Assembly: GCA_030601305.1 (NCBI GenBank) | Contig: JAUVTV010000005.1 | Coordinates: 1 to 33,310, forward strand | DNA: 33,310 nt | Direction: 5' to 3' | Source of the DNA: Candidatus Eiseniibacteriota bacterium | Lineage (GTDB): Bacteria; Eisenbacteria; RBG-16-71-46; CAIMUX01; WJJG01 | Part shown: positions 6,671-26,475 of the stretch, one piece after another | Numbering within the stretch: the first letter of the stretch is position 1 | Layout of the letters: each line of letters opens with the position of its first letter | The notes under the pieces: model-generated | Told to the model about the DNA's origin: nothing | Database searches by the model: none | What the model saw: only the letters and a program-made list of their open reading frames with translations | Made by a program: the position numbers and the translations under genes

Positions 6671-6708
6671 CCTAGCAGCCCGTGGCAGAAGTCATCCGGG
6701 CTGCTAGG
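6671..6708. repeat. Dispersed stop-codon hairpin element, copy B (best copy)
   Basis: CCTAGCAGCCCG (6671-6682) and CGGGCTGCTAGG (6697-6708) are perfect 12-bp inverted arms around the 14-nt loop TGGCAGAAGTCATC. The TAG stop of the FN3 gene (minus strand, 6704-6706) is inside the stem, so a terminating ribosome would cover part of it. No T tract follows. The same loop recurs at 17085, 29243 (complement), 2107 and, diverged, 25960. Confidence 0.85.
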
Positions 6709-9700
6709 GACGCCTCACGTAGACCTTGGTCAGCTTCGCGCCTGTGCCGGCCTCCAGCTTGAGGAAGTAGAGCCCCGGTGCGACTCGGGCGCCGTGGTCG
6801 TTGCGCGTGTCCCAGGTGAGCGTGACCTCGCCGCCAGGCGGGAAGGCCTCGTCGATCCAGCGACGCACGAGCTGACCGGAAGCACTGAAGATGCGCGCCT
6901 TGACGGACACACGTCCCGAGGCATCCGGAGGCAGGACTAGCTGGAAGCGCCCTTCGTCCTCGATGGGGTGCGGAAACGGGCCGCGCAGATCGAGTGCCTC
7001 GCTCAGCACCGCGACCTCGGCCCCCCAGGCGCTCTCGTTGCCCGCGCGGTCGACGGCCGAGAGCGAGACGAAGTAATTCCGCGTCCGGTCGGGCAGCTCG
7101 AACGACCAGTTCGTCTCCTGGACGACCACGTCCGTGAGCCGGTCGCGCGACGTACGGTCCGCGCTGCGTCCGTAGACATGGTAGCCCAGGACGTCGTCTT
7201 CCAGGGAGCGCAGCCAGGTCAGGGTGACGTCATGGCGGTCCGCGTTCACGTCTGCCAGCGGCGCATTCGGCGGGGCCGGAGGTTCTCGGTCCTCCTCTCC
7301 CTCCGCGGGCGTGCTTACGGTCACCACGTTGGAGAGATCCGACCAGCGGCCGGCCTCGTCCGCGCTGCGCAAGGCCACCCAGTAGGTCTCGTCGCTCTCG
7401 AGCGCGCTCACGCGCAGATGCTCGCGGTTGCCGGCGGCGGCGGGTGTCGGCGGGGCGGGCAGCTTGGGCAGTTCCGCCCACGCCTCGGGTGTGATCTCCT
7501 CCCGAACGCAGGCGATCTCGTAGGCCGCGGCGGAGCCGCCCGCGTCGTGCGCCGCGGGCGCGGTCCACGTGATGTCGATCCAGGCGGCGCCGATGCCGGT
7601 GACGATGAGATCCAGCACCGCATCGGGCGGCGGCGGTGACGCAGGCGTCTCCACGTGGAGCGTGTTCGAGAGCTCGGAGCCGTTGCCGGCGGCATCCGAG
7701 GTCCGCATGGCGACCCCATAGGCAGAGGCCGGGTCGAGCCCGGTCAGCAGGTAGCTCTCAGCCTCCCCCGCGGGCGCGGGTGCGGGGAGGTCGTCGAGAT
7801 CGAGAAGCGCATCGTCCCAGTTCTCGTCCGCCACCGTCTCGTCCGCGAGCGCGCCCAGGGCGTACGCTCCTGCCTGCCCACTCGTGCCGTCATCCCCGAC
7901 TGCGGTCCACGTCAGAAGGACCCACGACTCCCCGACCTCGGCGGCCGTCAGATCCTCGACGCGCGCGGGAGGGATCGTGTCGGGCAGCGCATCCGTCGTG
8001 AAGACCAGCGGCGGGTGCAGGGGCGAGAGCAGGTCGGCATCGTCGATGGCCCGCACCACCACGTTGTAGCCCTCTGCCGGTTGGAGACCCTCCAGCCGGT
8101 AGGCGACCGCGACGCCGGCCGAGTCGGGCTCCGGAAGCCCGGCCGTGACCTTCTCCGCCGCCTCCCAGGCCTCTTCGTCGGTGAGCTCGGTACCCGCGTC
8201 GAAACCGAGCACGAAGGCGCTGGCGATCCCCTCATCGCCGTCGTCACCCGGACAGGACCAGGTGAGGCGGGCCCACGTCGTCCCGTGGTCTGCGAGCGTC
8301 AGGTCCCCGATGGCGGCCGGGGCAAGACTGTCCGGGTCCCCGCCGGGACCATCGCCAGGGTCGTCCTCTGGAAGGGTCTGCGCGAGGAGCGGCGCACCCA
8401 GACTTGAGAGGTTGTCCGCCTCGTCGCGCGCCCGCAGGCTGAGTCCGTAATGGCGGTCGGGCTCGAGACCGCTCAGATGGAACGTCTGCTCCGTCCCCGC
8501 CACCTCCGGCGTGGGGAGCTCATCGGTGACGAGAGCGGCAGACTGCCAGTCGCTTTCCTCCGCGATCACGCGTCCCTCGAGGACGCCCAGGATGTAGCTC
8601 GCCGCCGTGCCGCTGGCGCCATCGTCCCCGGGCGCCGTCCACGCAAGATCAAACCCGTCGCTGAAGGCCGTCAGCGGCACCAGGTCGTGGATGGGGGACG
8701 GCGGCGTGAGATCGGGTGGTCCGAGCGTCTCGACGAGCAGCGGCACGCTCAGGGGGGCGCGGTTCTCGGCCTCGTCCACTGCCCGCAGGCAGATGCCGTA
8801 GGCGGTCGCCGGCTGCAATCCCTCGAGGTCGAACGACTGCGCGGTTCCCGCGTCGGCCGGTTCCGGGAGCCCCTCCGTGACCTGCTCTGCGGCTTCCCAA
8901 TCGGCTTCCGTCTCGATCGCCTCTCCGACCCGGAAGCGCAGGAGGTAGGTCGCCGCGCGGCCCGTGTCGCCGTCGTCTCCGGGGGCGTGCCAGGAGAGTT
9001 CGATCGCGGTTTGCGCAGCGGTTCCCGCCAGATCCTCGACGGCTCCCGGGGGCAGGGTGTCGGGTGCGGGATGGGTGGTGGCGACCAGTGGCGGCCCCAG
9101 GGAGGAGAGGTTGTCGGCATCGTCGAACGCCCGCAATGCGAGACCGTACGACGTCTCGGCCGTAAGGTCCTCAAGCCGGAAGGCCTGCGGCGTGCCCGCT
9201 GCGGCCGGCGCCGGCAGTCCGCTCGTGATCCGGGTCGCCGCTTCCCAATCGACTTCCCCTACGATCGCCTCCCCCTCGCGGTAGCCGAGGATGTAGCCGC
9301 TCGCGGTCCCCTCGTCACCGTCGTCGCCGGGAGAGGTCCAGGCGAGGTCCAGCGCGGTGACCAGGGCTTCGGCCTCGAGATCGTCGATCGCGCCGGGAGG
9401 CACCGTGTCGGGTGGCGCAGGCGTGGCCACGAGCAGCGGATTGGAGAGGTCCGACATCCGGCTCTCATCGTCGACGACGCGCACGCAGATCCCGTAGCTC
9501 GTCTCCGGTTCGAGCGTGGAGAGCAGGAAGGTCTCGGCGGTCCCCGGCGGGCCCGGCTCGGGCAGTCCCACGGCCACGGCCGTGGCCTCCTGCCAGTCGC
9601 CCTCCGTCGTGATCGCGCGCCCCTCGAGGTAGCGCAACTGGTAGTGATCGGCCAACCCCTCGTGGCCGTCATCGCCGGTTGCCGTCCATCCGAGTGCGGC

Positions 9701-11485
9701 CCAGGTCGGCCCCACGTCGGTCGCCTCCAGATCATCCACCGCCGCCGGAGGCGCACCGTCCGGCGCGGCTTGGGTCGTTGTCGACACGACGTTCGAGACG
9801 TGCGGCTCCAACCGGCCGTAGATCAAGTTCTTCGCCGCGAAGTAGTAGGTCGTCTCCGGATCGAGCCCGCCCACGATGTAGGAGATTTCCTGTCCGGGAA
9901 GGCCGACCGCACCCCCCGCGGGCGCTTCCGCGCACGTGTCCCAGTTCTCCGCGGTGATGGGATACGTGGCGTACCGGACGTAGGTCGAATCGATCCAATG
10001 CTCGCCCACCGGCACGGTCCAGCCGAGGGCGACAGCGTCGAACCCGGTGCCCGTCACGGCGATGTCGTCCAAGGTCATCCAGAACGCGAAGCGTGTGTTC
10101 TGTGGTGATACGCCTCCCACGTAGTGCTCGTACGGATTGACCTCGATGAATCCGTTCTCGAAGAGTCGTACGTAGAGCGTGTCGACGCCCATGACCTCCT
10201 TGCCGAAGTCCCCGAGCGGATCTCCGAACTCCCAATCGAATTCCTCCAGCCAGTAGAGATCGTGCTGGTTGACCGTCGTGGTGAAGTACCCGTCACCGAG
10301 CATCGCGGTGCCGATGCCCCAACGCTGCATGCGGCGCGTGAACGAAACGTCCCAGTCGGGTTCCTCCCACACCTGGATGAGCGTCATGTCCCACCCCTCG
10401 CGCTCGTCGACGCCAAAGGGGTGCATGACGCGCTCGGCGAACTCGTAGCCATCACCGAGGAGCTCCCCACTGCCGAGGCGGCGGCCGTAGAAGTAGCTCC
10501 ACCAGGTCGACGGCGCGTGATCGACGCGATCGGGGCGCCAGTGCTCCAGCTTCAGGCCGTGCATGTCCCAGGCCCATTCCGGATTCATATACTTCCCGCC
10601 GCGGTTGATGCGGAGGATCAGGTCCGGCTCCAGCACGATGCGCAGTCGCTCGTAGAAGTACTCGTTCACCTCGCGGTAGAGGTTCGAAAGCGGATCGTCC
10701 CAGCCACCGTCCCAGCAGTTCGTGTCGATCCCCTCGGCCACCCCGTCGCGATTCGGGTCCGCGTACATGTAGAGATCGCCCTGACAGCAGGCGGGGCAGT
10801 CGACCATGAACTCCCACTCGAAACCCTGGTAGGCTGACGAGCTCCAACCCCACGGTTCGAGGTCGGGAGAGTGATAGGCGACCTGGGGCATGGCGACATT
10901 GACGTACCACTCGGGGTAGGTCATCCCCCGCGACGTGCCGTAGGTGCCCTCGGGGCAATGGCGTGTCCAGTTCGCCGCGTAGCCACCCCACTCGTCGATA
11001 CGCTCGCCGTAGATGTCGTAGAGATACCAGTCGTTCTGTTCGGCGTAGAACTGCGCGAGGCGCGTGATGCTCCAGCTCGTGTCGGCGTGCCACCACGTGT
11101 CGCCCTCGTTCCAACGCACGAAGTTCTGCGGCATGGTGCGGAAGAACAGGATCTGGTGCGGATTGCGCTCCCGCAACTCAGCGATCATGTCGGGGGGATC
11201 CTTACAGCTGACCTGGTCGTACCAAGAGAGGGTCTCCCTCTCTGCCTCGGTGAACTGCCGGATGCGGCTGGTGTGGATCATGGTCTTGGGGTAGCCGGGA
11301 GGTCCGCCGCGGGAGGCGTCGGCGCGGGTCATAGCGAGAACGGTCAGCACGATGAGCGTGCCGAGGACGGCAGCCCGAAACCCGGCGCCGTGCGCGGGGC
11401 GTGCGGCGTACCGTCTCCGGAGAGGTCTTCTCGTCGCTGGTGTTTGAGCCATGGCAATGGAACGGGCGTACACGACCTGTGCCAC
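6704..11485 (-). CDS. Large secreted GHL15-like putative glycosidase with FN3 repeats and C-terminal FlgD-like domain
   Basis: About 1,590 residues. The N-terminal region has a hydrophobic segment (AAVLGTLIVLTVLAM). A ~430-residue domain rich in Trp/Tyr/Asp follows (WYDQVSCKDPPDMIAEL, LILRINRGGKYMN, GTAMLGDGYF, RLFENGFIEVNP). It resembles hypothetical glycosyl hydrolase families such as GHL15; no catalytic acid can be assigned by eye. Next come seven or eight FN3 modules of about 115 residues, most with a PGDDG or VGDDG loop and an inserted 'W..A......LP.P...G' segment, and then a FlgD-like Ig tail (KARIFSASGQLVRRW...GLYFLKLEAG). The start is uncertain: GTG at 11485 or ATG at 11452, neither with a clear ribosome site. 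It ends inside hairpin copy B. The role is probably cell-surface or extracellular polysaccharide binding/degradation (inference). Confidence 0.75.
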   Translation of the reverse strand: MAQVVYARSIAMAQTPATRRPLRRRYAARPAHGAGFRAAVLGTLIVLTVLAMTRADASRGGPPGYPKTMIHTSRIRQFTEAERETLSWYDQVSCKDPPDMIAELRERNPHQILFFRTMPQNFVRWNEGDTWWHADTSWSITRLAQFYAEQNDWYLYDIYGERIDEWGGYAANWTRHCPEGTYGTSRGMTYPEWYVNVAMPQVAYHSPDLEPWGWSSSAYQGFEWEFMVDCPACCQGDLYMYADPNRDGVAEGIDTNCWDGGWDDPLSNLYREVNEYFYERLRIVLEPDLILRINRGGKYMNPEWAWDMHGLKLEHWRPDRVDHAPSTWWSYFYGRRLGSGELLGDGYEFAERVMHPFGVDEREGWDMTLIQVWEEPDWDVSFTRRMQRWGIGTAMLGDGYFTTTVNQHDLYWLEEFDWEFGDPLGDFGKEVMGVDTLYVRLFENGFIEVNPYEHYVGGVSPQNTRFAFWMTLDDIAVTGTGFDAVALGWTVPVGEHWIDSTYVRYATYPITAENWDTCAEAPAGGAVGLPGQEISYIVGGLDPETTYYFAAKNLIYGRLEPHVSNVVSTTTQAAPDGAPPAAVDDLEATDVGPTWAALGWTATGDDGHEGLADHYQLRYLEGRAITTEGDWQEATAVAVGLPEPGPPGTAETFLLSTLEPETSYGICVRVVDDESRMSDLSNPLLVATPAPPDTVPPGAIDDLEAEALVTALDLAWTSPGDDGDEGTASGYILGYREGEAIVGEVDWEAATRITSGLPAPAAAGTPQAFRLEDLTAETSYGLALRAFDDADNLSSLGPPLVATTHPAPDTLPPGAVEDLAGTAAQTAIELSWHAPGDDGDTGRAATYLLRFRVGEAIETEADWEAAEQVTEGLPEPADAGTAQSFDLEGLQPATAYGICLRAVDEAENRAPLSVPLLVETLGPPDLTPPSPIHDLVPLTAFSDGFDLAWTAPGDDGASGTAASYILGVLEGRVIAEESDWQSAALVTDELPTPEVAGTEQTFHLSGLEPDRHYGLSLRARDEADNLSSLGAPLLAQTLPEDDPGDGPGGDPDSLAPAAIGDLTLADHGTTWARLTWSCPGDDGDEGIASAFVLGFDAGTELTDEEAWEAAEKVTAGLPEPDSAGVAVAYRLEGLQPAEGYNVVVRAIDDADLLSPLHPPLVFTTDALPDTIPPARVEDLTAAEVGESWVLLTWTAVGDDGTSGQAGAYALGALADETVADENWDDALLDLDDLPAPAPAGEAESYLLTGLDPASAYGVAMRTSDAAGNGSELSNTLHVETPASPPPPDAVLDLIVTGIGAAWIDITWTAPAAHDAGGSAAAYEIACVREEITPEAWAELPKLPAPPTPAAAGNREHLRVSALESDETYWVALRSADEAGRWSDLSNVVTVSTPAEGEEDREPPAPPNAPLADVNADRHDVTLTWLRSLEDDVLGYHVYGRSADRTSRDRLTDVVVQETNWSFELPDRTRNYFVSLSAVDRAGNESAWGAEVAVLSEALDLRGPFPHPIEDEGRFQLVLPPDASGRVSVKARIFSASGQLVRRWIDEAFPPGGEVTLTWDTRNDHGARVAPGLYFLKLEAGTGAKLTKVYVRRP
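7290..9760 (-). repeat. Tandem FN3-coding repeat units, period about 345 bp
   Basis: Seven units of about 345 bp encode the fibronectin III modules; unit boundaries marked by the 'PD(T/S)(L/V)PP' linker lie near 9760, 9420, 9070, 8720, 8335, 7985, 7640 and 7290. The first six share the GDDG loop; the seventh is more diverged. An eighth, divergent module covers about 7270-7000. The units are diverged enough to be old duplications rather than recent tandem copies. Confidence 0.7.
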
Positions 11486-11772
11486 ACCCGCGTCCGCGAC
11501 ATGATATCATAAGATGCATATCTGCAAAAGGTTGGGAGTCCGGGCAGGCTCACCAAAGCGGCATCGCCGCCTGCGCGCGTGCAGTCTGCAATCAGAGCGT
11601 TCCCGGGGCGCAAGGACCTGCGGCCCAAGACGATCGGGAACAGCAACGAGTGCAGCGGTGTTTCTCTTGCCGAGATCGGACTCGATGTACTAGATGGACT
11701 GGAAATGGACTAGGAGATGAACCCACCCCGTCGCCCGACGTGCGGCGGTGCGCATCTGGGAGGGAAAACGTG
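11486..11772. other. Intergenic region between the divergent FN3 gene and htrA
   Basis: Contains an AT-rich patch with a perfect 10-bp palindrome ATGATATCAT (11501-11510), in which the minus strand reads TATGAT, a possible -10 for the FN3 gene. A hairpin-capable pair GTTCCCG/CGGGAAC lies at 11599 and 11635. Upstream of htrA a weak promoter TTGCCG-18-TAGATG (11667-11696) abuts two direct copies of ATGGACT, 11 bp apart (11694 and 11705). I see no gene here; the upstream in-frame extension of the htrA ORF lacks coding character. Confidence 0.4.
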
Positions 11773-13287
11773 ATGAACATCCGCATGCAGCCCGCGCGCA
11801 GATCCCGCACGCTGTGGCCGATCGCCGGGGCGCTGTTCCTACTCGTCGTTGGCATCCTGATCGGTTCCTCCGGTCCTTGGCTCGGACGCAGCCCTTTGTC
11901 GCTGGCCGCGCCGGCGCAGGCCACCCCACCCAGCGACCCACAGGCGGTCGCTGCCTCGCTCAGCCAGGCGTTCGCGGACGTCGCCGACCGCGTCTTGCCC
12001 TCCGTGGTCACCATCACCAGCGAGAGGGTGGTGAACGTGTCCGGATCACCGTTCCCGGGTTTCTTCGACTTCTTCCATCCCCGGCAGCGCGGACAGCGGG
12101 GGGCGCCGCGTGAGTATCGTCAGCAGGGGTTGGGATCGGGAGTGATCGTCCGCGGGGACGGCATCATCATCACCGCCAACCACGTGGTGGAGGGCGCCGA
12201 GAACGTGCGCGTCCTGCTCGGCGACGACCGCGAGTTCCTCGCCGAGGTCGTGGGCACCGACCCGGGCACCGACGTTGCCGTCCTGCGCGTTGAGACGGAC
12301 GATGCGCTTCCCGCGGTGCCGCTCGGCACCGGCGATGTGCCGCCCGTCGGCGAGTGGGTACTGGCCCTCGGCAACCCGTTCGCCCCGGGTCTGCGCGGCA
12401 CGGTGACCGCCGGAATCGTGAGCGCGCAAGGCCGCCAAGGCATTGGCCTCACACCCTACGAGAACTTCATCCAGACCGACGCGGCGATCAACCCGGGCAA
12501 CAGCGGCGGGCCGCTCGTCAATCTGCGCGGGGAGCTGATCGGCATCAACACGGCTATCGCGAGCCGCTCGGGCGGCTATCAGGGCGTCGGGTTCGCCATA
12601 CCGGTGAGCATCGTCAGCTCGGTGCTGGAGAGCATTCTCGAGCATGGACGCGTGGAGCGCGGTTGGCTGGGCGTCTACATCAAGGATCTCGACGAGTCGC
12701 TGCGCGAGGCGTTCGGAATCCCTGATGACGTGCGCGGCGGCGTGCTCATCCAGGAGGTCATGGACGGCAGTCCGGCTGACGAGGGCGGCGCCGAGGCCGG
12801 GGACGTCATCGTCGAACTCGATGGCGCGCCGGTTGCCGACACGCATGACCTGCGCTTTCGCGTGGCCGCGACCCCGCCCGGGGATGACGTCACGCTGATC
12901 GTCTTGCGCGATGGGGAGCGCAGGACGCTGGACGTCGAGCTCGGGGAATTGGATGCCGAAGAGACCTTGGCCGAGGACAGTCGCGGCCCGGATGTGCAGG
13001 AGCGGATGGGTTTCGACGTTCAGGCGCTGGACGACGACCTGCGCCAGCGGCTCTCACTCGATTGGGATGCTACCGGCGTGGTCGTCACGTCGGTCGAGCG
13101 CTACTCGGGGGCCGAGGAGGCGGGGTTGCGTGAAGGCGACGTCATCGTCTCCGCGGACCGCCAGGTGATCGAGAGCCTCGGTGACCTCCAGCGCGTCATC
13201 GCCGGGTTGGAAGCCGGGGACGTTCTGCTCCTTCGGGTGGTGAACGAATCCGCGCGGCGCTTCGTGGCCGTCCGGATCCCCGAGTAG
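11773..13287 (+). CDS. htrA: HtrA/DegP-family periplasmic serine protease with two PDZ domains
   Basis: Envelope quality-control protease/chaperone of 504 residues. An N-terminal signal anchor (LWPIAGALFLLVVGILIGSSG) is followed by a trypsin-like domain with the complete triad: H137 in ITANHVVEGA, D167 in GTDVAVLRV, and S244 in NPGNSGGPLV. Two PDZ domains follow: the first around RGWLGVYIKDL...GGVLIQEVMDGSPADEGG, the second around GFDVQALDDDL...GVVVTSVERYSGAEEAGLREGDVI. Length and order match DegP/DegQ. The ATG at 11773 is preceded by GGGAGGG about 8 nt upstream; an adjacent GTG at 11770 is possible. A weak promoter and an 11-bp-spaced direct repeat lie upstream, which could fit stress control. 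The downstream trmJ gene is on the same strand, 140 nt away. Confidence 0.95.
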   Translation: MNIRMQPARRSRTLWPIAGALFLLVVGILIGSSGPWLGRSPLSLAAPAQATPPSDPQAVAASLSQAFADVADRVLPSVVTITSERVVNVSGSPFPGFFDFFHPRQRGQRGAPREYRQQGLGSGVIVRGDGIIITANHVVEGAENVRVLLGDDREFLAEVVGTDPGTDVAVLRVETDDALPAVPLGTGDVPPVGEWVLALGNPFAPGLRGTVTAGIVSAQGRQGIGLTPYENFIQTDAAINPGNSGGPLVNLRGELIGINTAIASRSGGYQGVGFAIPVSIVSSVLESILEHGRVERGWLGVYIKDLDESLREAFGIPDDVRGGVLIQEVMDGSPADEGGAEAGDVIVELDGAPVADTHDLRFRVAATPPGDDVTLIVLRDGERRTLDVELGELDAEETLAEDSRGPDVQERMGFDVQALDDDLRQRLSLDWDATGVVVTSVERYSGAEEAGLREGDVIVSADRQVIESLGDLQRVIAGLEAGDVLLLRVVNESARRFVAVRIPE

Positions 13288-14252: not shown

Positions 14253-15697
14253 CAGCCCGGCTCGGACGGAAAGCCGGGGCAGGCGCGAAACGAGAAGCTA
14301 AATCCCTCGGGAACGAATTCGCCCGTGATGAACTTCTGGTGATACGTCCCCCGCCACTCCTTGGCCGCGATCGCGCGCAGCGCTTCGAGGAAGCGGCCGA
14401 CGTCCTCGTCCGTGTTGTGCAGTCCAATGCTGACGCGCACCCCGCCGGGGATGTCCCGGCGATCGCCGCCGCGGATGCGATCCTCGAAGGCCTTCTCCCG
14501 TTCCTTGTCGACGTCCAAGAAGCTCTTGATCAGCGGGTGCGCGCAGAAGCAGCCGGCGCGCACCGAGATGCCGTACTCGTACGAGAGGACCGACGCCACC
14601 AGGTTGTGGTGCAGTCCATCGACCGCGAAGGTGACGACCCCCAGACGGTCTTCGAGATCCGTGGGATCACCGGGACCCATGATCCAGACACCGGGAATGC
14701 CGCGCATGCCCTCGAGCAAGCGACGCGTCAGAGATCGCTCGTGCTCGGCGACGCGATCCATCCCGATCCGCTCGTACAGGTTGATTGCCGCCGCCAGTGC
14801 AAAGAGCCCGAGGATGTTGGGCGTCCCCGCCTCTTGGCGGTCCGGCGGGTCGGCCCAGATGACGTGGTCGAGGCTGACCGAGTAAACGGTGCCACCGCCC
14901 TGCAGGTAGGGCGCCGCCCCGGCAAAAGCGTCCCGGCGCCCGACGATGGCTCCCTCCCCATAGGGCGAGTTCATCTTGTGGGCGCTGAAGACGACGAAGT
15001 CGAGGTGTCCGGGGTCGTCGTGGGGCCTCATGTCGATGCGCCGGTGGGGGGCGAGTTGGGCGGCGTCGATCACCACGCGGGCATCGTGCTGGTGGGCCCG
15101 CGATGCAATCTCGTGGATGGGAAGCACCTCGCCGGTCACGTTGGAGGCGCCGGTCACGGCCACGACGCGAATCCGTGAGCCGAACTCCGCGAGGCTGCGC
15201 TCGAAGCCCTGCATGTCCAACCGCCCGTCGGGGAGGCGGCCCACGTAGGCCACATGGGCCTTGCCGCGCCACGGAAGATCGTTCGAGTGGTGCTCCAGGA
15301 TGGTCGTCAGCACCACGTCGTCGGGCGACAGCGCGAAGGTCATCGCCAGGAGATTGAGGCCCTCGGTGGTGTTGCGCACCGGGATGACGATGTCACGCTC
15401 CGGGTCGCCGCCCACGAAACGGCTGACGATCTCGCGCGCTTCCTCATAGCGCTCCGTGCAGAGAAGCGAATCGAAGCCGGTCCCGCGGTGAATGTTCGAA
15501 TAGTAGCCCTCCATGTCGCGCAGAAAAGTGCTCACCGCACGGAACGGTTTGGTGCTGGCCGCGTTGTCCATGAAGATCTGACGCACCCACTCGCCGCTCA
15601 GCGTCGGCACCCGGTGGTCGGCGCCCAAGACCTCCGGAATGAAGAAGGTCTCGCTCTTACCGGACGGCGCCTGCCGCGCGTCCTTCTCCGTGTCCAT
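14249..15697 (-). CDS. Cysteine desulfurase-like class V aminotransferase (SufS/CsdA type)
   Basis: PLP enzyme of 482 residues, longer than the ~405 of SufS owing to extra sequence at both ends. The family expectation is removal of sulfur from L-cysteine to give alanine and a protein persulfide. Motifs: FMDNAASTKP, TTILEHHSNDLPW, VVIDAAQLAPHRRIDM, the PLP lysine in SAHKMNSPYGEG (K241), EAGTPNILGLFAL, and the candidate persulfide cysteine in RAGCFCAHPL (C383, with C385). The ATG at 15697 has GGGAGG 6 nt upstream. It converges with trmJ and the two TAG stops overlap. No SUF or ISC scaffold gene is adjacent, though an hscB/hscA pair lies 3 kb away, so a general role in Fe-S or thio-modification sulfur supply is inference; cysteine lyase or selenocysteine lyase are alternatives. 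Confidence 0.8.
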   Translation of the reverse strand: MDTEKDARQAPSGKSETFFIPEVLGADHRVPTLSGEWVRQIFMDNAASTKPFRAVSTFLRDMEGYYSNIHRGTGFDSLLCTERYEEAREIVSRFVGGDPERDIVIPVRNTTEGLNLLAMTFALSPDDVVLTTILEHHSNDLPWRGKAHVAYVGRLPDGRLDMQGFERSLAEFGSRIRVVAVTGASNVTGEVLPIHEIASRAHQHDARVVIDAAQLAPHRRIDMRPHDDPGHLDFVVFSAHKMNSPYGEGAIVGRRDAFAGAAPYLQGGGTVYSVSLDHVIWADPPDRQEAGTPNILGLFALAAAINLYERIGMDRVAEHERSLTRRLLEGMRGIPGVWIMGPGDPTDLEDRLGVVTFAVDGLHHNLVASVLSYEYGISVRAGCFCAHPLIKSFLDVDKEREKAFEDRIRGGDRRDIPGGVRVSIGLHNTDEDVGRFLEALRAIAAKEWRGTYHQKFITGEFVPEGFSFSFRACPGFPSEPGC

Positions 15698-15790
15698 GGG
15701 ATCCTCCCGTGAGCCTGACAACCGTCCCCCGGCAATGGGGGCCTCTCGCGTGCGCCGCATTGCGGCGCGCACCGCTCATCACGGTCCCGA

Positions 15791-15819
15791 ATTCTGCACG
15801 TCGCGGCGGCCCGCTGCAA
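15791..15819 (-). promoter_or_regulatory. Possible promoter for the desulfurase-like gene
   Basis: On the minus strand TTGCAG (complement of 15814-15819) and CAGAAT (complement of 15791-15796) are 17 nt apart, about 95 nt before the ATG at 15697. Both boxes are imperfect. Confidence 0.4.
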
Positions 15820-15854
15820 CCGGCACATACCGCTGTCCACCCCCTGAAGCACGG

Positions 15855-15883
15855 TTGACTTGCCCGCCCAAGGTCCATAATCT
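15855..15883 (+). promoter_or_regulatory. Promoter for the type II GAPDH gene
   Basis: TTGACT at 15855-15860 and TAATCT at 15878-15883 are 17 nt apart (CATAAT with a 15-nt gap is an overlapping alternative). This places the transcript start near 15890, immediately before a 9-bp inverted repeat. Confidence 0.6.
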
Positions 15884-15895
15884 CTGCGGCATCTG

Positions 15896-15917
15896 ATGTC
15901 CGGAGCGGTCCGGACAT
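15896..15917. promoter_or_regulatory. Inverted repeat at the 5' end of the GAPDH transcript (operator or leader hairpin)
   Basis: ATGTCCGGA - GCGG - TCCGGACAT is a perfect 9-bp inverted repeat with a 4-nt centre, lying between the predicted transcript start and the G-rich ribosome site (15922-15930). It could be an operator for a dimeric regulator or a 5' stabilising hairpin. Confidence 0.55.
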
Positions 15918-15936
15918 TGAAAGGGGGGGGATCAGT

Positions 15937-17007
15937 ATGGGCAAGACAGGCAAGCACGTCCACGTGGTGGGAACGGGAACGATCGGCGAACCTCTGATCG
16001 GGCTGCTCCTCGACTTCCGCAAGGACCTCGGAATCGATGAGATCAGCTTCAACAAGAAGCAGGCCCTCACCTACGACCGCCCCAAGGTCAAGAACCTGAT
16101 CCGCCGCGGGGCACGGCTGGTCGCCGACCAGGAGATGATTCCCCAGTTCGAGGATCTGGGCATGAAGATCACCTACGAGTACAACGAGGTGCTCGCGAAA
16201 GCCGACGTGATCATCGACTGCACTCCGGCCGGCAACCGCCACAAGGAGAACCAGTACCAACGCATCGAGGAGACCACCGCCGGTTTCGTCGCCCAAGGCA
16301 GCGAGTTCGGCTTCGGCAAGATGTATGCGCGCGGCATCAACGACGAGGCCCTCGAGCGGGGCAAGGACAAGTACATCCACGTGGTCTCCTGCAACACGCA
16401 CAACCTGGCCGTGCTCATCGACACCCTGGCCCTGCAGGACAAGGACGCCGGCAATCTGGTCGAGGGACGCTTCGTGCTCATCCGGCGCGCCAACGACATC
16501 AGTCAGGACAGCAAATTCATCCCGGCACCGCAGGCCGGCAAACACGACGACGAGCGCTTTGGTACGCACCACGCCCGCGATGCGTACCATCTGTTCAACA
16601 CGCTGGGGCACGAGCTGAACCTGTTCAGCTCGACGATGAAGGTGAACACCCAGTACATGCACTCGATGTGGTTCAGCATTCGGTTGCGTGAGAGGATCTC
16701 GCTGCCGCAGGTCATTTCCCGGCTGCGCGAGAACCAGCGCGTCGCGCTGACCGAGAAGCGTTCGGCCAACTCGATCTTCTCGTTCGGGCGCGACCAGGGC
16801 CACTACGGGCGGCTGCTCAGCCAGACGGTCGTCTCGGTGCCCACCCTGCACGTACGCGGCGACCACGAGGTGGTCGGCTTCACCTTCACGCCGCAGGACG
16901 GCAACTCGCTGCTCTCGTCCGTGGCCATCACCGCGTGGTTCCTCTATCCGGACGACTACGTCGAGCGGTTGCAGCCGTTGCGGGAGTACTTCTTCGAGGA
17001 GATTTGA
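15937..17007 (+). CDS. gap: Type II (archaeal-type) glyceraldehyde-3-phosphate dehydrogenase family protein
   Basis: 356 residues. The order of motifs matches archaeal GAPDH, not bacterial GapA: VGTGTIGEPLIG (nucleotide binding), FEDLGMKITYEYNEVLAKADVIIDCTPAG, FVAQGSEFGFG, the catalytic-cysteine segment VVSCNTHNLAVL (C152), RRANDISQDSKFIPAP, GTHHARDAYHLFNTLG and MHSMWFSIRL. Archaeal enzymes have SCNTTGL, RRAADP and SHHGPD in these places. The expected reaction is reversible, phosphorylating oxidation of glyceraldehyde-3-phosphate with NAD(P)+. The start is preceded by a run of G's, and a promoter plus inverted repeat lie upstream. Deviations such as THN after the cysteine mean a specialised paralogue is possible. 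No other glycolytic gene is adjacent. The family call is fairly secure; the physiological direction is unknown. Confidence 0.78.
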   Translation: MGKTGKHVHVVGTGTIGEPLIGLLLDFRKDLGIDEISFNKKQALTYDRPKVKNLIRRGARLVADQEMIPQFEDLGMKITYEYNEVLAKADVIIDCTPAGNRHKENQYQRIEETTAGFVAQGSEFGFGKMYARGINDEALERGKDKYIHVVSCNTHNLAVLIDTLALQDKDAGNLVEGRFVLIRRANDISQDSKFIPAPQAGKHDDERFGTHHARDAYHLFNTLGHELNLFSSTMKVNTQYMHSMWFSIRLRERISLPQVISRLRENQRVALTEKRSANSIFSFGRDQGHYGRLLSQTVVSVPTLHVRGDHEVVGFTFTPQDGNSLLSSVAITAWFLYPDDYVERLQPLREYFFEEI

Positions 17008-18713: not shown

Positions 18714-20534
18714 CTAGTGCAGCAGGAGCTGCAGGCTGGCGTCCAGATCCCGCTGCATGAGCGGGCGAGCGGCCTCTTCGAGCTCCTGGGCACACGTGCG
18801 AATCTCCATCAGATCAGCGCCCTCGAGAACCTCTTCGAGCTCCTTGGCCTTCTTCGCGATCAGCTGCTTCTCGTCGCGAGTGATGATCCCGGCGCGCCGC
18901 CGGGAAAGCTCGCGGAGCGATTCGAGGACGAACCGCCCGCGGGCGCGAAGCTCCTCCCGCAAGGCCTCCTCGAACTCGGCCGCCTTCACCTTCGGCACGC
19001 TCTCGAGCGTCGCCCGGACGGCCGAGGAACTCAATCCGCGAATGGGCCGCAGTTCCAGGCCGAGTGGCTTCTGCTTGGTGGTTTCGAGAGCCGTCACCTC
19101 CAGGACACCGTCCTCGTCGACGGCGAAGCTTACCTCGATCGCCGGGAGCCCCGCCTTCATCGGCGGGATCTGGGAGAGCTCGATCCGGGCGAGCGGTGCC
19201 CAGTCGGAAGCCGCTTTCGCGAACAGCTGAATGGCCACGTCGGTCTGTCGCTCGAGGTAGGTCGTGAATACCTCGCGCTTCCCTCCGGGGATGACGGCGC
19301 CGCGCTTCAGGATCGGGCTCATCGAGCCCGCCTGCGCCTCCAATCCCAAGCTGCAGGGCAGCACATCCAGAACCAACGGCTCCGATTGAGCGTGATCCAG
19401 GAGTCGTGCGCGGGCCAGCGCCCCCAGCACGGCGGCCTCCTCGGGATCCGGCACGTCGCCGGCACTCAGCCCGAAGCAGGTCTCGAGATGTTCGCGCAGT
19501 GCGGGGATGCGCGTCAGCCCCCCGGCGAGAACGAGGGCGTCCAGGTCGCCCTTGAGGAGGCCGGCATCGGTCAACAACTGCTCGCAGACGCGCGATGCCT
19601 CGGTCCTGAGGCTCTCGCACCAACGATCGAGGTCCTCATTCGTGTAGGTCTGTCGAACCGCTTCCTTGCCACCGACAATCGGCAGCTGCAGTTCCGCATG
19701 GCCGCGCTCGCAGATGCCGTGCTTGGCCTTCTCCGCGGCGACGAGCACATAGCGTGCGATGTGGGACTCATTCTCGAGCTGCCCGCGCTTCTCCTTCACC
19801 TTGCCCAGGAAATCGCCGGCCAGCTGCAGATCGATCTGGTCGCCGCCGACCTCCGCCGAGCCGGCGGTCGAGAGAACGCGGAGAAACCCATCCTGGAGCT
19901 CGACCAGGGCAGCGCTCAAGTAACCGGCACCCCAGGTGCAAACGGCCGCGCGCCCGCTGTGCCCGGCGGCGAGCCACGCCTCGGCCACGGCGATGGGTTC
20001 GTCGATTAGCCGGACCCGCTCCAGGCCGGCCATGCGGGCGGCCACGCGGAGTGTCTGCCGGTCGAACGGCGTGAAACAGGTCGGTACGGTGACGACGCCC
20101 GCGGTCACGGGTCGCTCGAGCGCCAGCTCCGCCGAACGGCGCAGGAACGCGAGGAAGAGCGCGATCAGCTCGATGGCCGGGCGCTCCCGCTCCCCGACAT
20201 CGACCTGCAGCATGGTCTGCACGTCGGAATTGACCGGATGGGGAAAGAACGGTCCGCGCGGGGTCACGGTGCCCGGGCCGGCGGTGAGCAGAGACCTCAG
20301 CGAGCGGAGCGTGTGCTGCGGATAGAGCGCCTGCCGATCGCGGGCCGCCGCGCCCGCCAGAATCCCGCCCCCTCCGGAAAGCGCGATCACCGACGGTATG
20401 CGTGCATCGCCGGCCAGGTCCGTGACGAAGGCATGCCCCTCACCGCGGGCGTAGGCGATGCGACTGGTGCCGGTCCCGAGATCGAAGGCCACGAAGTCCG
20501 GCTCGGTTGACTGCCTTGTGGGTTGTGCCGCCAA
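18714..20534 (-). CDS. hscA: Divergent Hsp70-family chaperone, HscA-like
   Basis: 606 residues with the Hsp70 layout: phosphate-1 loop FDLGTGTSRIAY (17-28), VPTCFTPFDRQTLRVAARMAGLERVRLIDEPIAVAEA, an adenosine-type motif VLAGGLTRIPALREHLE, PLVLDVLPCSLGLEA, a substrate-binding beta domain and a C-terminal helical lid. Directly downstream of an HscB-like J protein, so a role in Fe-S cluster transfer is likely (context inference). Odd: the phosphate-2 motif normally DLGGGTFD reads CTWGAGYLSA (199-208), losing the conserved Asp and Thr, so ATP hydrolysis may be weak or altered. Start is TTG at 20534 with AGGAG 6 nt upstream; no better ATG is available. An ordinary DnaK is expected elsewhere. HscA versus another specialised Hsp70 is not settled. 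Confidence 0.8.
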   Translation of the reverse strand: MAAQPTRQSTEPDFVAFDLGTGTSRIAYARGEGHAFVTDLAGDARIPSVIALSGGGGILAGAAARDRQALYPQHTLRSLRSLLTAGPGTVTPRGPFFPHPVNSDVQTMLQVDVGERERPAIELIALFLAFLRRSAELALERPVTAGVVTVPTCFTPFDRQTLRVAARMAGLERVRLIDEPIAVAEAWLAAGHSGRAAVCTWGAGYLSAALVELQDGFLRVLSTAGSAEVGGDQIDLQLAGDFLGKVKEKRGQLENESHIARYVLVAAEKAKHGICERGHAELQLPIVGGKEAVRQTYTNEDLDRWCESLRTEASRVCEQLLTDAGLLKGDLDALVLAGGLTRIPALREHLETCFGLSAGDVPDPEEAAVLGALARARLLDHAQSEPLVLDVLPCSLGLEAQAGSMSPILKRGAVIPGGKREVFTTYLERQTDVAIQLFAKAASDWAPLARIELSQIPPMKAGLPAIEVSFAVDEDGVLEVTALETTKQKPLGLELRPIRGLSSSAVRATLESVPKVKAAEFEEALREELRARGRFVLESLRELSRRRAGIITRDEKQLIAKKAKELEEVLEGADLMEIRTCAQELEEAARPLMQRDLDASLQLLLH

Positions 20535-21513: not shown

Positions 21514-22110
21514 ATGACGCACGTGTCCCCACCGCTGCGCGTCAGCAGCCAGTTGATCTCGATGCCGCGCGCGGTCCCCGACTGGCCGGGTCAGGTCCTG
21601 GAGTATGTCTTTCTCCTCGGCGCCACGCTGTGGCTCGGCATCCACGCTTCCACCGCCCTGCTGACGGCCCCCCTGATCGCGAGGAACGCCGAGCCGACCT
21701 TCGAGATCATCAAGCTGCTCATCTGGCTGCTCGAGGCGCTGGGCTACACGTCCGCGGTGGTCTCCGGAATCCTCCTCCTGACCACCCTCGGGATGCACCT
21801 GCTCAAGCTGCGGACGCAGACGGCGGTTCTCGTACAACTCGGCCTGGTCCTGTTCATGACCGTGGCGGCGATTGTGCCACAACTCTGGATCGTGCCGAAG
21901 CTCTCATCCCTTCTGCGTCTGGCGAGTCTCTTCCCAGAGGAGGCCGGGGGCGCGGGGAGCGACGCTCTGGTGATCACCACCACCGGGCTGGGGACCATGG
22001 GGTTGCTGCATCTCTTGTTCGGATCCATCCTGGTCGCCCTGGCGACGCGGCGGTGCTACCGATATCCGCGCAGCGAGGAGCCGAAGCTCAGCGTCTGCGA
22101 ACTCCCTTGA
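21514..22110 (+). CDS. Small integral membrane protein, about four transmembrane segments
   Basis: 198 residues, unrecognised with certainty. Hydrophobic segments near residues 29-55 (VFLLGATLWLGIHASTALLTAPLI), 67-95 (IIKLLIWLLEALGYTSAVVSGILLL), 105-125 (AVLVQLGLVLFMTVAAIVPQL) and 160-180 (GLGTMGLLHLLFGSILVALA) indicate a four-helix inner-membrane protein. The pattern (LWLG at the start of helix 1, charged short loops, a final hydrophobic hairpin) is reminiscent of DUF4149/TMEM205-like proteins, but the likeness is weak. ATG at 21514 follows AAGGAAAGG by about 9 nt. Its end overlaps the convergent miaB end by 23 nt. Function unknown. Confidence 0.7.
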   Translation: MTHVSPPLRVSSQLISMPRAVPDWPGQVLEYVFLLGATLWLGIHASTALLTAPLIARNAEPTFEIIKLLIWLLEALGYTSAVVSGILLLTTLGMHLLKLRTQTAVLVQLGLVLFMTVAAIVPQLWIVPKLSSLLRLASLFPEEAGGAGSDALVITTTGLGTMGLLHLLFGSILVALATRRCYRYPRSEEPKLSVCELP

Positions 22111-23407
22111 GCGTGTGCGAGGAAGCCGCCGTGATCTCCACGCGAGCGATCTCGCCCGCCCGAATCTCCTCCGCTTCCTCCGCTTCGCCCGGCGAGAACA
22201 CCGCCGCCTTCATGTCGCTGCAGCGCCCGAAGAGGCGGTCGGGCGTTCCCCTTGCAGGACCCTCCACGAGCACCTCCTGTGTCGTGCCGATCCTGGCCTG
22301 GTAGCGCTCGAGTGAATGGCGCTCCTGAAGTGTGATGACCGCGGAGAGGCGGTGCTGCTTGACCTCGGGGGGTACGTCGTCGGCCAGGAAGCGCTGCGCA
22401 TGAGTCCCCTCGCGTGGCGAGTAGGCGAACGTGAACGCGCTGTCGAAGCGCACCGTCTCCATGACCTCGACCGTGCGCGCGTAGTCCTCGTCGGATTCGC
22501 CCGGGAACCCCACGATGATGTCCGTCGTGATGGAGATCTCCGGCAGGGTGCGTCGCGCCCGCGCCACGAGGTCGACGAACTCTGCGGCCGTGTAGCCTCG
22601 GCGCATGGCCGTGAGGATCCGGTCGGAGCCGGCCTGCAGCGGCAGATGCAGATGACGGGCGATGACCGGATGACGCCGCATCACCTCCAGCAGACGCACG
22701 GACAGATCGCCCGGATGGGGGGCCAGGAAGCGGAGGCTGCAGAGCCCGGGGATCCCAGCCAACGCCTCCAGCAGCGCGGCGAAATCGCGCTCTCCCTCCC
22801 GATACGACGTCACCGCCTGGCCCAGCAACGTCACCGCGACGAACCCGCTCTCGACCGCCTCGCGGGTGGCGCGGATGGCCGCTTCCGCGGGCAGACTGCG
22901 CTCACGGCCGCGACCGAAGGGCACGGCGCAGTAGGTGCACGCTCGATCACACCCGCGCATGATGCTGACGTACGCGTGGATGCCGTCAGCCCGCAGAGGA
23001 GACAGGTCTTCATAGGTCTCCCCCCTGTCCCGGGCCAGGGCGAAGTGGGGGTCGCGCGAGGGATCCGCCACCAGTTCCGGGAGCCGGCGATAGGCGTCGG
23101 GGCCGATGAAGAGATCCACGTCCGGAAGCCGTTCGGCAAGCCGCTCCCCGAGATGCTGCGGCAGACATCCGGCGACCACGATCCGGAGACCGGGGCGCGC
23201 GCGTCGCAGCGGCGCCAAGCTGCGCAGGTAACCGACGACGCGGTCGGCGGCCCGCTCGCGCACCGAGCAGGTGTTCACCACGATGAGGTCCGCGCCGTGC
23301 GCATCGGTCGCTCGCACCCATCCGTCGTCTTCCAGGATTCCGGCGATCAGCTCGGAATCGGCGACGTTCATCTGGCAGCCGTAGGTTTCGATGCAGTAGT
23401 GTCGCAT
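22088..23407 (-). CDS. miaB: tRNA methylthiotransferase, MiaB type (radical SAM)
   Basis: Adds the 2-methylthio group to i6A37 of tRNAs using two [4Fe-4S] clusters. 439 residues with the full architecture: N-terminal UPF0004 domain with C11 (YGCQMN), C47 (VNTCSVRERA) and C81 (AGCLPQ); radical SAM domain with CDRACTYC (C153, C157, C160); and a C-terminal TRAM domain. The motif following the SAM cluster reads LLGQAVTSY, where MiaB usually has LGQNVNSY, an uncommon double change. ATG at 23407 is at the conserved N-terminus, overlapping the end of the upstream paralogue by 40 nt, with only a weak ribosome site, consistent with translational coupling. MiaB versus a related methylthiotransferase rests mainly on YGCQMN and NTCSVRE. 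Confidence 0.9.
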   Translation of the reverse strand: MRHYCIETYGCQMNVADSELIAGILEDDGWVRATDAHGADLIVVNTCSVRERAADRVVGYLRSLAPLRRARPGLRIVVAGCLPQHLGERLAERLPDVDLFIGPDAYRRLPELVADPSRDPHFALARDRGETYEDLSPLRADGIHAYVSIMRGCDRACTYCAVPFGRGRERSLPAEAAIRATREAVESGFVAVTLLGQAVTSYREGERDFAALLEALAGIPGLCSLRFLAPHPGDLSVRLLEVMRRHPVIARHLHLPLQAGSDRILTAMRRGYTAAEFVDLVARARRTLPEISITTDIIVGFPGESDEDYARTVEVMETVRFDSAFTFAYSPREGTHAQRFLADDVPPEVKQHRLSAVITLQERHSLERYQARIGTTQEVLVEGPARGTPDRLFGRCSDMKAAVFSPGEAEEAEEIRAGEIARVEITAASSHTLKGVRRR

Positions 23408-24789
23408 GCCTCGTCCACGGTGTTCGCGATTGTACCGGGAGCATCCAGAGTGCACGCCTGGAGACCGGGGCGCAACGACCGACCGGCAATCACCTGCAGC
23501 CACTCGCCGCAGCGGACGTGCCCCCCATCGCCCCTGCGCCCGAGTGCCCCCGCCATGCGCACGAACTCGCCGCTCGTGCCCTCGAAGCGGCCGCCGCGTA
23601 TGCGCTCGACCACCAGATGACAGACCTCCCCTTCGATCTCACGTTGAAACCGCAGGCGCAATCGATCACCCAGCTCGCGCAACGCGGCAACCCGCTCCTT
23701 GCGCCGGGCGTGAGGCACGCTGCCGGGGTCCGTGGCGGCGGGCGTCCCTGGCCGCTCCGAGTAGGCGAAGGCGTGAAGATACGTCGCGCCGAGTTCCTCC
23801 ACGAGGTGCAAGGTGCGGCGGAACGACTCGTCCGTCTCTCCCGGGAAGCCGGCGACGATGTCCACGCCGAGACCCAGGCGCGGCAGCCTCGCGTGTAGCT
23901 TCTGTACGAGTGCCCTGAGGTCAGCGACGCCATAGGGGCGTCCCATGCTCCGCAACACGCGATCATCGCCGGACTGAACGGCGACATGGAGGTGGCGGGC
24001 GGCCTTCCCGGAAGCGGCAAGCTGGGTGATCAGCGAATCGGTGAGCGTCATCGGCTCCAGCGAGCTCAGCCGGATGCGTTCGAGCCCGGGAATCCGCTCG
24101 AGCTGCTCGAGGAGGGCCGCCAGGGGGTGCCGGGCAGTCGGCGAGAGCGCGCGGGGCTCCCGGTCGAGGCCGTAGCATCCCAGATTGACCCCGGTGAGCA
24201 CGATCTCACGGAATCCCGCTTCCGCCAGACGGCGTGCGGCGCGGATCACCTCACCGGCCGCGCGCGAGCGGGGATCGCCGCGCAGGCGCGAGACGATGCA
24301 GAAACGGCAGGTGTATGGACAGCCGTCCTGGATCTTGAGCGCCGGCCGGGCGCGGGTGCGGGGAACGGCCCCGGTGCGATCCAGAAACGCCATCGCGGTT
24401 GGATCGGCATCCCAGATGATCTTCTCGACCTCACCCGGGCCCGGCTCCCACCCGCGGAGCAGCCGGGGCAGATCGGCCTTGGCGCGGTTTCCAACGACCA
24501 GGTCGACGCCCTCGATACGCGCCAGACGCTGCGGATCGAGCTGCGCCGCGCAGCCGGTGATCAGCACGCGGGCCCCGGGTGCCTTGCGGACGGCCCGTCG
24601 AATGGCTTGCCGGGATTGCGCCTCGGCCGCACTGGTCACGGCACAGGTGTTGACGAGCACCAGATCGGCGGGTCCCGGAAAGGCGACCTCTGCATACCCC
24701 ATTTCGAGGAGGTGCGAGCGGAGGGCATCGACCTCCTCCTGGTTGGTTCGGCAACCGAGCGACGCGATGGTGAAACGCAACCGGGTCAC
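23368..24789 (-). CDS. mtaB: tRNA methylthiotransferase, MtaB type (radical SAM)
   Basis: Expected to convert t6A37 to ms2t6A37 in tRNA. 473 residues: UPF0004 domain with C13 (SLGCRTNQEEVDAL, the MtaB variant of the motif), C49 (VNTCAVTSAAE) and C80 (TGCAAQ); radical SAM CPYTCRFC (C157, C161, C164) within LKIQDGCPYTCRFCIV; then GVNLGCYG, a C-terminal TRAM-like segment and an unusual short tail. Start is GTG at 24789 with GGAGG 5 nt upstream; the ORF extends to 24840 but without support. First gene of a two-gene operon with miaB behind a TTGACA-18-TACGCT promoter. RimO is excluded because its motifs and length differ. Confidence 0.9.
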   Translation of the reverse strand: MTRLRFTIASLGCRTNQEEVDALRSHLLEMGYAEVAFPGPADLVLVNTCAVTSAAEAQSRQAIRRAVRKAPGARVLITGCAAQLDPQRLARIEGVDLVVGNRAKADLPRLLRGWEPGPGEVEKIIWDADPTAMAFLDRTGAVPRTRARPALKIQDGCPYTCRFCIVSRLRGDPRSRAAGEVIRAARRLAEAGFREIVLTGVNLGCYGLDREPRALSPTARHPLAALLEQLERIPGLERIRLSSLEPMTLTDSLITQLAASGKAARHLHVAVQSGDDRVLRSMGRPYGVADLRALVQKLHARLPRLGLGVDIVAGFPGETDESFRRTLHLVEELGATYLHAFAYSERPGTPAATDPGSVPHARRKERVAALRELGDRLRLRFQREIEGEVCHLVVERIRGGRFEGTSGEFVRMAGALGRRGDGGHVRCGEWLQVIAGRSLRPGLQACTLDAPGTIANTVDEACDTTASKPTAAR

Positions 24790-24869
24790 GAGTACCTCCG
24801 GGGCCGGTGAAGGGCGGGCACCTGCCGCGCTCGGCAGCACGCCCCCCCGGGAACGACATCGGACGCCTA

Positions 24870-26235: not shown

Positions 26236-26475
26236 CCGCCCCAAGATGTTGGGGTTGGTCCCATGCGAGCCAGCCGCTAAGCTCTTCGGACGCGGGGTGG
26301 GCTCTCAAGAGAGATCCACTCTAGGGAGGGATTTGCTGGCTCTGGGGGACCCGACGACGACGGGGGAGTCGGGGAAGCGGCAGGAACGGCGGATCACCGA
26401 GGGAGCTTAGGCGGGAACACCGAGGGAGCTTAGGGCTTCACCAATGAGGCAGTGGGCCTCACCGAGGAGGAATCC
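26236..26475 (+). promoter_or_regulatory. Folded 240-nt leader of nrdJ with tandem 17-bp repeat
   Basis: Contains CCCCAA-GATG-TTGGGG (26239-26254), a two-part stem GGGTGG..CTCT/AGAG..CCACTC (26295-26321), a CCCGAC/GTCGGG stem near 26350-26373, and two copies of CACCGAGGGAGCTTAGG at 26395 and 26418 (23-bp period) close to the start codon. No cobalamin-riboswitch core or NrdR box is visible. A regulatory role is inference. Confidence 0.4.

Follow-up and report, generated by a model that had tools for sequence, protein, structure and literature searches.

A GAPDH-fold protein from an Eisenbacteria genome lies in a deep sister branch of the type II glyceraldehyde-3-phosphate dehydrogenases

The window analysed here, a stretch of 33,310 nt, comes from a metagenome-assembled genome (MAG) of 2.24 Mb in 219 contigs, 69% complete, whose nearest relatives are Candidatus Eisenbacteria. 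At positions 15937–17007 of the forward strand it carries a 356-aa ORF with an ATG start, a TGA stop and zero internal stops. The protein contains VVSCNTHNLA (with C152), RRANDISQDSK (residues 183–193), GTHHARD (residues 209–215) and MHS (residues 241–243), and the ORF and motifs reported in the initial annotation (VVSCNT, RRANDxxQxSK, GTHHARD and MHS) are all present. Its identity to relatives is 79–82% for Eisenbacteria from its own family and mostly 54–66% for other orders and phyla, which argues against a chance ORF. An opposite-strand ORF (15598–16866, reverse) overlaps the gene and was taken as a shadow ORF. In the features below, the branch means the window protein and its relatives, and canonical refers to the type II glyceraldehyde-3-phosphate dehydrogenases (GAPDHs) with which they were compared.

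15855–15883, forward: weak candidate promoter, TTGACT-17 nt-TAATCT, with the same layout upstream in L003 and L199, not in L002
15923–15930, forward: G-rich stretch 6 nt before the ATG, read directly from the sequence, a probable ribosome-binding site
15937–17007, forward: coding sequence of a GAPDH-fold protein of the SCNTHN branch, 356 aa plus stop (HMMs, relatives, model with pLDDT 94.6, PDB matches)
15967–15987, forward: GTGTIGE, region of residues 11–17, putative glycine-rich dinucleotide-binding loop of the Rossmann fold; G12, G14, T15 and G17 are invariant in the branch and match canonical type II
16300–16317, forward: branch-specific loop S122-E-F-G-F-G127 (canonical G-G-E); S122, G125, F126 and G127 are invariant in 77 members and absent from canonical type II
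16387–16404, forward: SCNTHN, residues 151–156, with the presumed catalytic Cys152 (Cys140 of 1cf2 in the alignments) and the branch signature H155-N156 (canonical T-G/A)
16483–16497, forward: RRAND, residues 183–187, arginine pair common with type II GAPDH, probably phosphate-binding; R183, R184 and D187 are invariant in both groups
16660–16662, forward: His242 codon, equivalent to His219 of 1cf2, probable catalytic base by analogy with the M. fervidus enzyme; invariant in both groups
16894–16905, forward: QDGN, residues 320–323, branch motif (canonical Q-E-S-D), invariant in 77 branch members

In the sister genomes L003 and L199 the promoter layout upstream of the gene reads TTGACT-17 nt-TACGCT / TACATT; a scan for consensus promoters gave no match upstream of the window gene and did not list the candidate there. 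The gene stands by itself, with a class-V aminotransferase-like gene diverging from it on one side and a GTP cyclohydrolase I gene converging on it from the other; these neighbours carry no glycolysis signal. Elsewhere the window encodes a 1593-aa fibronectin-III protein with a FlgD-like C-terminal domain (6707–11485, reverse), an Hsp70-family protein (18717–20534, reverse), two adjoining UPF0004/radical SAM genes (22091–24840, reverse) and a class II B12-dependent ribonucleotide reductase (26452–29232, forward).

GAPDH is a central carbon enzyme, of which two phosphorylating classes are usually described. The NCBIfam HMMs nearest to the window protein were those of type II, NF003251 (94.5 bits) and TIGR01546 (77.8 bits); the type I (GAPDH-I) model TIGR01534 scored 16.8 bits. 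The protein fell far short of the curated type II cut-offs (185 bits for NF003251 and 232.9 bits for TIGR01546), and of the type I cut-off of 367.2 bits, and no branch member was seen above about 124 bits with NF003251. A Pfam search of the window protein returned no match over threshold, and HMM matches to DapB_N, HMD_N, VCIP135_N and 3-hydroxyacyl-CoA dehydrogenase were weak, below their own cut-offs, and were rejected. A phmmer search of solved structures gave significant matches to four archaeal GAPDHs only. The AF2 model, built from 77 branch sequences (pLDDT 94.6, pTM 0.92), matched best the type II GAPDHs 2czc, 2yyy, 1cf2 and 1b7g, with TM scores of 0.75–0.80; the top six PDB matches were all type II, and GAPDH-I and erythrose-4-phosphate dehydrogenase structures reached about 0.6. 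The protein therefore has the type II fold, and HMM ranking and fold both bear out the view that type II GAPDH, not GapA, is its nearer relation. The superfamily fold and Cys-based chemistry are common to the branch and type I GAPDH, but the low type I score and TM value set the two apart, and the source genome has two separate GAPDH-I genes. Non-phosphorylating GAPN, of the aldehyde dehydrogenase superfamily, was rejected, since there was no aldehyde dehydrogenase Pfam match and the fold is that of GAPDH.

The residue comparison set 99 members of the branch against 31 canonical type II sequences, with some invariance counts made on 77 aligned relatives. Positions invariant or nearly so in both groups were G12, G14, T15, G17, K40, D94, P97, S151-C152-N153-T154, R183, R184, D187, H211, D215, M241-H242, R285 and Q320. 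In 1cf2 numbering, C152 is Cys140 and H242 is His219, which we take to form the catalytic pair in the M. fervidus enzyme; K40 is the equivalent of Lys33, which presumably contacts the NADP ribose phosphate. C152, H242, R183 and R184 are invariant, and Lys40 is kept across the branch. Specific to the branch are H155 (canonical T), N156 (G/A), S122 (G), the FGFG insert at 124–127, G209 (P), Q239 (T) and D321-G322-N323 (E-S-D). The observation that THN replaces TTG or TTA after the Cys extends to the whole branch, with H155 in 77/77 members and T in 31/31 canonical sequences, so that the SCNTT motif is absent. Compared with archaeal type II GAPDH (NF003251/TIGR01546; 1cf2, 1b7g, 2czc, 2yyy), the branch thus shares the fold, the Cys140, His219 and Lys33 equivalents, the arginine pair and, in some genomes, pairing with pgk, but differs in having SCNTHN for SCNTTG/A, QDGN for QESD and a GSEFGFG loop of its own. 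Profile–profile alignment of the branch with canonical type II gave a probability of 99.8% at an identity of 25%.

The altered residues beside the catalytic Cys, unlike those of all canonical enzymes, could mark a catalytically altered relative, whether non-phosphorylating, regulatory or otherwise not a phosphorylating dehydrogenase. A divergent relative (L243:4468–5532, forward; G485) has gone further in this direction: it reads SCNAQN and GTYQARD, keeping the Cys and losing the Thr, the signature His and the GTHHARD His, and possibly has another function. For the branch itself we consider such an alteration very unlikely, as Cys152, His242, Arg183/184 and Lys40 are kept throughout, and a non-phosphorylating enzyme would not serve the phosphoglycerate kinase (PGK) step that is kept in carriers lacking another GAPDH. 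A sequence more distant still (L237:4214–5290, reverse; G321; 138 bits), with SCNTHA, GTHQARD and an end branch of 4.8, indicates that the superfamily has further unexplored branches.

Phylogenetic analysis included the Sulfolobus, Methanothermus, Methanocaldococcus and Pyrococcus enzymes, canonical type II sequences of Thermoplasmatota, and bacterial type II sequences from plasmids and chromosomes. A split with 100/100 support and about 7 changes per column, branches so long that the relative depth of the branch and canonical type II should not be over-read, parted all branch sequences (about 100 relatives) from every sampled canonical type II sequence, archaeal or bacterial. With a GAPDH-I outgroup, the branch formed one clade (98/93) and canonical type II another (89/96). 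The window protein therefore lies outside the clade of the characterized type II enzymes, and the suggestion of an anciently diverged lineage was well founded. Given the missed cut-offs, the missing motif and the separate clade, we file the protein as a member of a sister branch.

These results bear on the reading of an archaeal-type GAPDH in a bacterium, namely a canonical archaeal type II enzyme gained by horizontal transfer. The nearest HMMs and structures are indeed type II, and to that extent the description holds; the missed cut-offs and the 100/100 split from the canonical enzymes of archaea and bacteria contradict the rest, and we regard this origin as scarcely tenable. The gene was found in 4/4 other sampled members of the family (one a fragment) and in 3/6 genomes from other families of the order, so it is native; a recent transfer from archaea was rejected, because the gene also groups with those of other Eisenbacteria. 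NCBI already annotates canonical type II GAPDH in bacteria, examples being those on plasmids of Meiothermus (WP_027888532.1) and Paracoccus (WP_103174168.1). Those proteins, bacterial type II homologues like the branch, differ from it in carrying SCNTT and grouping with archaeal type II, and are 23–25% identical to the window protein. The canonical genes on bacterial plasmids (L248, L249, L250, L251) lie beside glgP, pfkA or AarF/UbiB genes or, in two cases, next to a gene of the isoprenylcysteine carboxylmethyltransferase family.

A scan of GTDB genome contigs for six short peptide patterns, an undercount by design, yielded 206 confirmed relatives in about 15 bacterial and two archaeal phyla. 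The bacterial relatives belong to Eisenbacteria, Acidobacteria, Binatia, Myxococcota, Bdellovibrionota, Desulfomonile, Nitrospinota, Entotheonella, Neomarinimicrobiota, Krumholzibacteria, Gemmatimonadota, Planctomycetota, Acidimicrobiia, Bipolaricaulota and one 'Proteobacteria' MAG, and the archaeal ones to Thermoplasmata and one Bathyarchaeote. With this spread, the branch is not peculiar to the source genome. Outside the class, a profile search found a clear branch member in about 14 of some 338 bacterial genomes; overall, 28/385 genomes matched, a few of them with canonical type II. In a first, quick tree the earliest-branching members were Thermoplasmatota, in a region that the later tree did not resolve.

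As to whether the source genome also has gapA, it has two tandem full-length GAPDH-I genes (C141:10724–11689 and 11748–12719, 437 and 365 bits). In this pair (G000:C141:10724–12719, L208) the second gene scores lower; the tandem arrangement recurs among carriers in many other phyla. Most bacterial carriers, like the source genome, have GAPDH-I too, and across domains it exceeded the cut-off in 34/50 carriers. No canonical type II gene over cut-off was found in the source genome or 28 relatives; among 30 carriers searched with NF003251 the only one was in MAG G117, in a stretch with one stop.

Of 60 Thermoplasmatota genomes, 34 had canonical type II (two fragments counted), 15 the branch (one fragment counted) and 13 GAPDH-I. 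Canonical type II and the branch occurred together in 0/60 (Fisher p = 1.5e-7, kinship ignored). In 11/60 the branch enzyme was the only GAPDH found, and all 11 had PGK. Two Entotheonella (G109, G110) and one Binatia (G119), each with its chromosome in a single contig, likewise have PGK, no GAPDH-I and no canonical type II. 1,3-Bisphosphoglycerate (1,3-BPG), the product or substrate of PGK, needs a phosphorylating GAPDH. The Entotheonella PGKs (L229, L230) score low for their family, at 235–236 bits against about 430–480 in other bacteria. The Thermoplasmatota with GAPDH-I are G099, G133, G135, G136, G139, G142, G145, G147, G158, G159, G162, G170 and G172, a distribution that conflicts with the published view that gapI in archaea is confined almost entirely to saccharolytic haloarchaea (PMC10817205).

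Gene order gives a further link to PGK. In 6 of the 11 Thermoplasmatota with the branch enzyme alone, a pgk gene (PF00162, 342–380 bits) lies directly upstream on the same strand, 17–20 bp away. These six loci formed one clade in the first, quick tree, and so may represent a single event; the same applies to five Acidimicrobiia loci in which isocitrate lyase is directly upstream of the branch gene. The isocitrate lyase neighbour connects these loci with gluconeogenesis that starts from C2 units. In several Thermoplasmatota loci (e.g. L148, L153, L177) pgk also adjoins a canonical type II or GAPDH-I gene, so pgk tends to be paired with whichever GAPDH the genome has.

The same observations allow us to weigh the possibility of a GAPDH-fold dehydrogenase that applies the same Cys/His chemistry to another phosphorylated aldehyde. 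Erythrose-4-phosphate dehydrogenase (Epd) beside GapA is a precedent for such a change of substrate. It would accord with the invariant H155, N156, S122, FGFG insert and QDGN around the active site, with the GAPDH-I already present in most bacterial carriers, and with the position of the branch gene after pdxS-pdxT-like genes (identified by eye) in Bipolaricaulota (L008). However, carriers that have PGK and lack another GAPDH would then be left without an enzyme for the step that follows, and neither the pgk-linked operons nor the exclusion of canonical type II in the 60 Thermoplasmatota is expected. We therefore regard another substrate, which the initial annotation had also raised, as possible but rather unlikely, and as less well supported than GAPDH activity.

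Phosphorylating GAPDH activity, which the window protein is likely to have, is favoured by the shared fold and catalytic positions together with the mutual exclusion with canonical type II, the pgk operons and the genomes in which PGK occurs without another GAPDH. The gene thus probably encodes an NAD(P)-dependent phosphorylating GAPDH of a deep sister branch of type II, apparently not yet named. Against this stand an identity of only 25% to canonical type II and the differing residues that flank the catalytic Cys, which differ further in L243. Open-access literature in PMC, searched for bacterial GAPDHs of type II/III or archaeal type, yielded no account of the branch, an absence that is weak evidence.

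We infer catalysis, substrate, cofactor and direction of the branch enzyme as follows. Cys152 would attack the aldehyde of glyceraldehyde 3-phosphate (G3P) or, when the reaction runs backwards, the acyl phosphate of 1,3-BPG, giving a thiohemiacetal or thioester, with His242 as the base. The nucleotide would occupy the N-terminal Rossmann fold, its ribose close to Lys40, and phosphate binding would be aided by Arg183/Arg184. In genomes with no other GAPDH, the enzyme would act together with PGK, forwards or backwards as required; as the only recognizable GAPDH of several organisms, it probably makes sugar phosphates there by gluconeogenesis. Beside the two GAPDH-I copies of the source genome it would serve the anabolic side, converting 1,3-BPG to G3P, like archaeal gapII beside gapI in haloarchaea, where the glycolytic role of gapI and the gluconeogenic role of gapII were shown experimentally (PMC10817205). 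This precedent and the isocitrate lyase link suggest an anabolic direction in genomes with two GAPDHs, and the different direction proposed initially is plausible from context; for the source genome we see an evenly balanced case for it. The proposed division of labour is the same, GAPDH-I glycolytic and the type II-like enzyme gluconeogenic, but haloarchaeal gapII is a canonical type II gene, whereas the window gene belongs to the sister branch and its role is read from context. A question raised by the branch is whether gluconeogenic flux runs through it in organisms whose glycolysis uses GAPDH-I.

A further deep branch below the HMM cut-offs would make complete genomes look GAPDH-less, a false gap in the reconstructions of many uncultured lineages. 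We tentatively speculate, somewhat short of favouring the idea, that the branch, which reaches about 15 bacterial phyla and two archaeal ones, makes up a third phosphorylating GAPDH class with an active-site signature of its own (SCNTHN, GSEFGFG, QDGN), and that lineages such as Entotheonella, some Binatia and a group of Thermoplasmatota have no other GAPDH; if so, an enzyme is missing from the current metabolic reconstructions of these organisms.

Two other neighbourhoods recur. In Acidobacteria (L005, L009, L020, L021, L025, L074), hprK-, rapZ- and ptsI-like genes, identified by eye, lie near the branch gene, a possible link to carbon regulation, and one HPr kinase was confirmed by Pfam somewhere in the neighbour set. 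A PF00753 metallo-beta-lactamase-fold hydrolase gene adjoins the branch gene in L016 (5508–6158, forward) and also in L013, L014, L040, L044, L047, L051, L053, L059, L062 and L067, a cross-domain link in which the hydrolase gene is divergent in Thermoplasmatota and on the same strand in Neomarinimicrobiota.
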